Source: Ilex aquifolium (lineage: Eukaryota; Streptophyta; Magnoliopsida; Aquifoliales; Aquifoliaceae). Taken from it: 64,000 nucleotides of DNA. A program made the translations under genes and the position numbers. The stretch's first letter is position 1. Each line of letters begins with the position of its first letter. The stretch covers positions 9,824,001 to 9,888,000 of the forward strand of contig OX637402.1 of assembly GCA_951799425.1 (NCBI GenBank), written 5' to 3'. Under the pieces are notes generated by a model that saw nothing but the letters and a program-made list of their open reading frames with translations, ran no database searches and had not been told where the DNA came from. Of this stretch, positions 17,852-18,262 are shown piece after piece.

Positions 17852-18262
17852 TTATATTGAGTCGGAGTCAGAACTGCCTGGATTATTAATACCAGTGACT
17901 CGACCAACTTCATTTCGAACGTACTTGGTTAACATCGGGGTGGAGTAGGATGGCGCCTCAGGGTAGTCCTTACTCTGCCCATACCTAATCCACCGTAATC
18001 GATCGGACGCTCGACCTGAAATCGGTTCCGCACATGGATTGTATTGTCTTAAATGTTCTGTTCGACCGCATCTGACACAACCACCGAGACAATTTGCTCG
18101 TCTGTGTTTAGCATACGGACTTTTTCCACACAGTGGTCTTGGTTGACTTTCAAATATTTCCAGATTTCTGACTTTTCTGGCTTTTTGCATGATTAGTGCG
18201 TGAACGTCTTTTGGAAGATGACGCAGTATAATTAAACTTAACCAAAATAGTTTTACATCCAT
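17852..18262 (-). CDS. Carlavirus CRP-like cysteine-rich protein ORF, copy A
   Basis: 136 residues, lying 331 bases downstream of the integrase end and 571 bases upstream of the accessory ORF. Visible parts: a hydrophobic N-terminus (residues 4-14) followed by LPKDV; a basic stretch SPYAKHRRAN (48-57); C62-X2-C65 with H70 and C77 as possible further zinc ligands; then WIRYG (91-95) and a Pro at 101. From memory, carlavirus cysteine-rich proteins share this layout: an MDV-like start, hydrophobic N-terminus, S-x-YA-(K/R)-x-RRA, LGRC-x2-C, a Cys before P-x-IS, then (F/W)IRWG and P. Members bind nucleic acid and some suppress RNA silencing. The spacing C-X2-C-X4-H-X6-C also resembles a stretched zinc knuckle, so a gag-derived origin is the alternative. 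A capture from a virus is inferred, not proven. Confidence 0.7.
   Translation of the reverse strand: MDVKLFWLSLIILRHLPKDVHALIMQKARKVRNLEIFESQPRPLCGKSPYAKHRRANCLGGCVRCGRTEHLRQYNPCAEPISGRASDRLRWIRYGQSKDYPEAPSYSTPMLTKYVRNEVGRVTGINNPGSSDSDSI

Follow-up and report, generated by a model that had tools for sequence, protein, structure and literature searches.

A gene of the viral nucleic acid-binding protein family as a resident of an Athila-like retrotransposon of Ilex aquifolium

This analysis concerns a 136-residue open reading frame (ORF) carried by a long terminal repeat (LTR) retrotransposon of Ilex aquifolium, within a 64,000-nucleotide stretch of contig OX637402.1 (positions 9,824,001 to 9,888,000, with this whole stretch being referred to as the window). 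The ORF's product is, as judged by its sequence, a member of the viral nucleic acid-binding protein (NABP) or cysteine-rich protein (CRP) family, and the ORF itself is a resident gene of the retrotransposon, one which is under purifying selection. An earlier note on this DNA had located the ORF between integrase and an accessory ORF, and this placement is borne out. That is, the coordinates as well as the ATG start are correct, and the gene is found on the minus strand, in the same sense as gag-pol, flanked by the integrase ORF, which ends at 18594, and by the accessory ORF3 at 16381-17280. The gene, its second copy in the window, and its immediate neighbours are as follows:

17852..18262, minus strand: NABP/CRP gene, 136 residues, ATG start; PF05515 E 1.7e-9, PF01623 E 1.3e-5
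37953..38363, minus strand: NABP/CRP gene of the second internal region; protein 99% identical, with 1 of 136 residues differing from the first copy
18594..23339, minus strand: 3' part of gag, and pol, i.e., protease (weak match), reverse transcriptase (RT), RNase H and integrase
16381..17280, minus strand: accessory ORF3, PF20167 (putative plant transposon protein)

The encoded protein consists of an N-terminal hydrophobic segment, a basic AKHRRA stretch, a C-X2-C-X4-H-X6-C finger, an ISGRxxDRLxWI motif and an acidic Ser/Asp tail. All of the sequence parts which the earlier note had named are present, i.e., MDV along with a hydrophobic run, LPKDV, SPYAKHRRA, LGGC-x2-C, a Cys before EPIS, and WIRYG, and the finger spacing is as it had been given. 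A basic (Arg-rich) motif followed by zinc-finger residues fits how the viral proteins are defined (PMC9104223). The AlphaFold model of the protein is weak, with a mean pLDDT of 59, and among solved structures there is no sequence match at E<=1.

A carlavirus-type identity had been proposed for this protein. Against Pfam, the window protein in fact exceeds the curated cut-offs of two viral families, Viral_NABP (PF05515; E 1.7e-9, 38.4 bits versus a cut-off of 23) and Carla_C4 (PF01623; E 1.3e-5, 25.5 bits versus 20.9), with no other Pfam family, whether of gag zinc knuckles or of plant proteins, matched at E<=10. As both viral families exceed their cut-offs and nothing else is seen, the resemblance is not due to chance. 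Both cut-offs are exceeded as well by six of six further genome copies. Membership in the viral family thus stands, while the carlavirus portion of the proposal is refined, as it is the p10 proteins of vitiviruses which come closest among the named viral sequences compared, none of these being from a carlavirus.

The path to those viral proteins does not itself start from viruses. A first protein search with the window protein yielded four relatives. A profile which combined these five sequences, all of them lacking a virus name, then gave 16 matches at E<=10 from 2394 candidates. Of these, 15 are relatives without a virus name (three have JGI-given names, which in two cases read 'Viral nucleic acid binding'), and the sixteenth does bear a virus name, being p12 of Allamanda chlorotic virus B (E 5.9e-5, in a search of 5.8 billion proteins). 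With that protein as query, grapevine viruses A, K, D, J and P (GVA, GVK, GVD, GVJ and GVP) are retrieved in turn. By taxonomy GVA is a vitivirus of the Betaflexiviridae and Allamanda chlorotic virus B is an unclassified member of Riboviria. Compared profile to profile, the retrotransposon and vitivirus p10 sides match with E 1.5e-13, a probability of 98%, and 38% identity over 76 columns. Among 21 scanned family members, 6 of which are viral, Viral_NABP is matched at E<=0.01 by all 21 and Carla_C4 by 18. Allamanda p12 itself falls slightly below both cut-offs (22.8 versus 23 for Viral_NABP, 18.3 versus 20.9 for Carla_C4), and by this measure the retrotransposon protein is the better match to the viral profile of the two. 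Positions 110-213 of the PF05515 profile are matched by the window protein and positions 147-208 by Allamanda p12. IMG/VR viral contigs yielded no relatives, and neither did genomes of bacteria and archaea.

A gag zinc knuckle, or instead a host zinc finger, might conceivably have become such an ORF by convergence. The CCHC ligands are in keeping with that origin, as are a knuckle-like CEICALSGHPAAEC stretch in the element's gag part and a match to zf-C2HC_2 by 1 of the 21 family members (E 0.002). For the window protein, however, no zinc-knuckle family appears at E<=10, BLASTP comparison with the gag, pol and ORF3 of the same element yields only chance-level hits (best E 0.44), and the vitivirus similarity takes in not just the finger but also the basic motif, the ISGxxxDRLxxV motif and the tail. 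Convergence consequently is viewed as highly improbable, and the gag-knuckle origin, which had been left open by the earlier note, is rejected on the absence of a knuckle family and the chance-level gag comparison. Homology to the viral NABP/CRP family, by contrast, is well established from sequence.

That the gene is resident in the retrotransposon is seen across the genome (800 Mb, 103 contigs). Genome copies are here the best-scored 150 per search, all of them picked by NABP and biased as such towards intact and similar copies. The window protein finds a match in all of the best 150 of 4085 first-look candidates, PF05515 finds at least 150 copies over cut-off (150 of 150 scored), and each of five genome searches with the NABP family gives at least 150 matches. 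The same PF05515 search of 14 control genomes gives no match. In a survey of the flanks of 18 NABP-picked sequences, 12 possess integrase, NABP and ORF3, three NABP and ORF3, one integrase and NABP, and two NABP alone. Order and strand are constant in all 16 of the 18 which have at least one neighbour; one locus has a second, inverted copy, and one a long integrase-NABP gap.

For analysis of selection, 88 loci plus the second window copy supplied 89 hits, of which 88 were kept (one was dropped for gaps or length) and 79 are distinct. The four finger ligand residues are conserved in 77, 79, 77 and 78 of these 79 (best-scored rows). Stop codons are seen in none of 55 group A copies and in five of 24 group B copies, three of the latter having a stop at codon 135 only, one at 114, and one at both 69 and 135. 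With the five stop-bearing copies removed, comparison of A with B, which represent two subfamilies (55 x 19 copies, 1045 pairs), gives a nonsynonymous divergence (dN) of 0.096 and a synonymous divergence (dS) of 0.763, i.e., a ratio of 0.125. Ratios within groups are higher, 0.273 and 0.407, as is expected of copies that decay following insertion. Between the window element and B copies, dN/dS is 0.127 for NABP (11 copies), 0.104 for integrase (6) and 0.103 for ORF3 (8), though for ORF3 dS is 1.6-3.2 and thereby near or past saturation. An excess of third-position change is significant in six of six pairs tested (24 B rows in all), with p below 0.0006.

RNA-virus pieces do exist endogenously in plants (PMC3136472), and this gene could in principle be a recent fragment of that kind, caught by chance in one element. 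What is found instead is a gene repeated throughout the genome, in constant surroundings and under purifying selection. There is also no flexivirus coat-protein match in the genome, in a search that gave no control match either. An isolated fragment is hardly credible, and was rejected given copy number, constancy of neighbours and purifying selection. NABP, that is, is a resident gene of the retrotransposon and evolves under purifying selection.

The remainder of the host element, along with an insertion into it, is as follows:

23433..24014, minus strand: 5' part of gag (PF03732)
24105..24122, minus strand: putative primer-binding site TGGCGCCGTTGCCGGGGA, adjoining the LTR
12564..14291, minus strand: 3' LTR (TGATTAACC...GCGAATCA); target-site duplication (TSD) CTTAC at 12559-12563
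24129..25854, minus strand: middle LTR of the tandem array
44253..45978, minus strand: 5' LTR; TSD CTTAC at 45979-45983
27050..35600, plus strand: nested shorter element of the same kind; gag-protease kept, no RT-to-integrase or NABP match; TSD GTACA; pre-NABP signal at 31921-31947

These features form a tandem LTR-internal-LTR-internal-LTR array extending from 12564 to ~45978, with a single 5-bp duplication, CTTAC, at both ends and with the nested element interrupting it; LTR boundaries were set from this tandem structure. Both internal regions carry the NABP ORF. Between the outer LTRs there are 17 differences in 1727 aligned sites (divergence K 0.0099), which, with plant rates of 7e-9 to 1.3e-8 substitutions per site per year, translates roughly to an age of 0.4-0.7 million years. 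The element has the layout of the Athila type, i.e., an LTR element with gag, protease, RT, RNase H and integrase in that order and an extra sense ORF before the 3' LTR. By that layout it presumably is an Athila element, as the earlier note had it. The LTRs of the nested element contain a 130-residue open frame (27641-28033 and 34220-34612) which by eye is the same in both.

A short way upstream of both NABP genes in the window there is a conserved sequence, one which is found ahead of most of the NABP genes inspected:

18307..18333, minus strand: AACTGGCAGACGTTAAAGAACCGGATA, a conserved signal resembling a splice acceptor, 44 nt before the NABP start
38408..38434, minus strand: second copy of AACTGGCAGACGTTAAAGAACCGGATA

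Across groups A and B, just some pieces of the spacers around NABP can be aligned. The piece found directly before NABP is 37-54 nt long and 85-95% identical in 11 B copies, and a 32-base core of it recurs before both NABP genes of sequence L105, the first of L106, and the single ones of L107 and L108, and occurs as well in L109, a sequence which ends before its NABP. Within the window the core is matched three times, the third being that in the nested element lacking NABP, versus no matches in 100 shuffles. The core resembles a 3' splice site, with TRAC and then an AG which is kept in every copy inspected. From this likeness, the upstream signal probably is a splice acceptor for a subgenomic NABP mRNA.

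The PF05515 genome search finds additional lineages which score higher than the window's, up to 52.6 bits, with 147 of the 150 best rows lacking a stop. L105 and L106 each possess two NABP genes in tandem (NABP1 and NABP2). In L105 the end of integrase is directly upstream of the pair, and ORF3 has no match in two 5-kb stretches of L105 and L106. NABP1-NABP2 pairs that are on the same strand and 1.6-2.4 kb apart number 41 among 102 NABP1 and 110 NABP2 rows, with one pair arranged otherwise; these are 102 and 110 of 150 rows each, those excluded being mainly of other frame lengths. Probably, then, NABP was duplicated in tandem in one lineage. Within L106:655-2829, NABP1 and NABP2 share a local stretch, GRSSYSKRRRATRLGAC, which differs in L105, and this looks like gene conversion between tandem paralogues. 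L107 and L108 retain gag-protease and NABP, with no match to RT through integrase, and perhaps represent (L107:1814-4809 and L108:211-2783) a non-autonomous family that relies on full-length relatives. Two database proteins, P0010 and P0004, have best genome matches that are just 92% and 87% identical and therefore probably come from other plants. When a database protein is used to search the genome, 149 of the best 150 rows lack a stop and 70 share a single bit score, 267.3, which is suggestive of a recent burst.

Also in the window is a relative of the element in which NABP has not been found:

51335..56844, plus strand: related, degraded Athila-like gag-pol, the comparison element, with several frame breaks

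Its integrase shares 66% identity with that of the window element, and in a pol tree of 13 rows the comparison element falls outside of the NABP-bearing elements (support 89/96). Elsewhere in the window, NABP searches yield only chance-level pieces at E<=1. A nested insert at 57121-63929, which runs almost to the end of the window, interrupts the comparison element, and the analysis therefore was extended over the 5 kb of contig that follow. These contain no NABP match besides two chance-level hits. They do contain a frame resembling ORF3 (31% identity, E 3.7e-17) and, after it, a stretch which recurs at 49296-49398 and which perhaps is an LTR of the comparison element. The simplest reading is one gain of NABP in an ancestor of the NABP-bearing lineages; loss from this single degraded element is possible as well. 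The nested insert itself has a direct repeat, 57121-58960 and 62089-63929 (1.84 kb, 97% identical), which probably represents LTRs around a minus-strand ORF of 325 residues (60982-61959) with three near-identical CCHC knuckle repeats (CEICxExGHxxSECP).

Gain by an element need not imply a viral donor, as NABP might instead have passed from an ancestral plant element to filamentous viruses. The NABPs of retrotransposons are both old and diverse, existing as paralogues and with proportions of synonymous difference (pS) of 0.69 and 0.73 between the window gene and the two L105 genes, and they score 38-54 bits on the viral profile versus 22.8 for one viral member. Against such a reverse transfer, members of the NABP family are present in two families of viruses (PMC12172455), and none was found in the related Athila-like element adjoining in the window. 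Transfer in this direction is considered unlikely. In an unrooted protein tree of 35 rows, the viral rows are on one side (support 100/100) of long branches of 1.2 and 1.27 changes per column; these are six rows, all near vitiviruses, in a tree without carla- or allexivirus rows.

The explanation that we favour, with roughly even confidence, is that one Athila-like lineage gained a viral-family NABP which is now a selected, separately expressed, RNA-binding and anti-silencing gene. An ancestor of this lineage would have acquired, between integrase and the 3' accessory ORF, a gene of a family that otherwise is known from filamentous plant RNA viruses (Betaflexiviridae, Alphaflexiviridae). The gene is now a working, selected part of the element, open in several subfamilies and probably tandem-duplicated in one lineage. 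The conserved upstream signal probably would permit translation from a spliced subgenomic mRNA, and the protein most likely would bind RNA via its basic stretch and zinc finger and would, most likely, shield the element's RNA against silencing by the host, in the way that GVA p10 serves its virus. What we infer here, that is, are the virus-to-element direction, splicing, RNA binding and silencing suppression.

Silencing suppression is the first choice of function, with about an even chance of being right, since the parts of the retrotransposon protein follow one another as they do in suppressor CRPs. GVA p10 is an RNA-binding suppressor of silencing which has a C-X-C-X4-H-X4-C finger in addition to its arginine-rich motif (PMC9104223), and carlavirus and mandarivirus CRPs are reported to be silencing suppressors too (PMC12172455). 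The main rival is that this viral-family protein has been kept for some other use, i.e., RNA packaging or chaperoning, nuclear entry, or control of transcription or other gene regulation. Purifying selection cannot separate such functions, and a carlaviral CRP is described as both a weak suppressor and a transcription factor (PMC12172455). Against this rival, members from vitiviruses, carlaviruses and mandariviruses alike are reported suppressors (PMC9104223, PMC12172455), and another use is considered somewhat unlikely. A bolder version of suppression, in which the lineage captured a filamentous-RNA-virus suppressor, gave it its own signal, duplicated it and now escapes silencing, with escape having helped its recent spread, is offered tentatively, as possible rather than probable.

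A number of points weigh against the favoured explanation of a gained and selected anti-silencing gene. Retrotransposon silencing in plants is largely transcriptional, so that a viral-type suppressor might help little. Residue 58, which adjoins the basic motif, is Cys in the window copies versus Arg in 69 of 79 distinct copies. As to the signal, conservation is not peculiar to it, with the spacer piece directly before ORF3 being 82-92% identical and others 74-89%; it extends beyond what an acceptor needs; and the 32-base core was not reported, in an ungapped scan, before NABP2 of L106, where a reading frame translates through a similar stretch. Change looks relaxed between L105 and L106 in NABP2 (dN 0.047, dS 0.056) and between L107 and L108 in NABP (dN 0.176, dS 0.295), and for the latter two no selection therefore is claimed. 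Equal clustering on the pol tree is obtained in 34 of 500 label shuffles, and the gain depends on one degraded, insertion-split element. Lastly, as regards the direction of transfer, the protein tree is unrooted and has just six viral rows, all close to vitiviruses.

Among known systems, vitivirus p10/ORF5 (GVA, GVK, GVD, GVJ, GVP) and Allamanda p12 are alike to the window protein in their MD start, GRS[TS][YF]AK, CCHC-type finger, ISGxxxDRLxxV, ETPxY and acidic tail. They differ from it in being without ~37 N-terminal residues, in having C-X-C rather than C-X2-C, and in being genes of RNA viruses rather than of a retrotransposon. To carlavirus CRPs (PF01623, PF05515) the likeness is by way of profiles, both above cut-off, rather than direct alignment; the N-terminal PF05515 portion which Allamanda p12 does not reach is covered, and it is the host replicon which differs. 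Orchid Ty3/gypsy elements with an AlkB-type m6A demethylase (PMC9289625) are similar in that they too come from plants and possess an additional ORF, the domain of which is found also in Betaflexiviridae, but their demethylase is homologous to plant enzymes. The same study surveys extra domains of LTR retrotransposons in 121 angiosperm genomes and names others; carla, NABP, PF05515 and PF01623 are not in its main text (PMC9289625).

Sunflower Athila elements have additional 3' ORFs as well, with a transposase-type domain, and for an additional ORF of sunflower Tekay silencing modulation has been proposed, from structural likeness to double-stranded-RNA-binding proteins (PMC11728184). That proposal, however, is for a 5' ORF of another lineage, and no viral NABP family is named in the portions of that paper drawn upon. 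Plant additional and env-like ORFs (PMC7264820) include sense ORFs between pol and the 3' LTR that are conserved across copies, as here, whereas the antisense ones are described there as dissimilar to other transposable elements or viruses, versus the clear viral-family similarity seen in this case. Among the papers listed by full-text literature searches, which reach portions of papers and mostly not subscription ones, there is no report of NABP in a retrotransposon. How retrotransposons attain high copy numbers despite RNA silencing, and from where their extra ORFs come, are open questions, with recombination with an unknown virus having been proposed as one possible origin in a study of Retand (PMC11963269). 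Retrotransposons with an extra ORF are known, and the extra ORF here belongs to an RNA-virus family. NABP in so abundant an element points to gene exchange between viruses and retrotransposons and, as this extra ORF is of a clear RNA-virus family, is selected, and exists in many copies, both such exchange and a transposon-encoded suppressor become directly testable.
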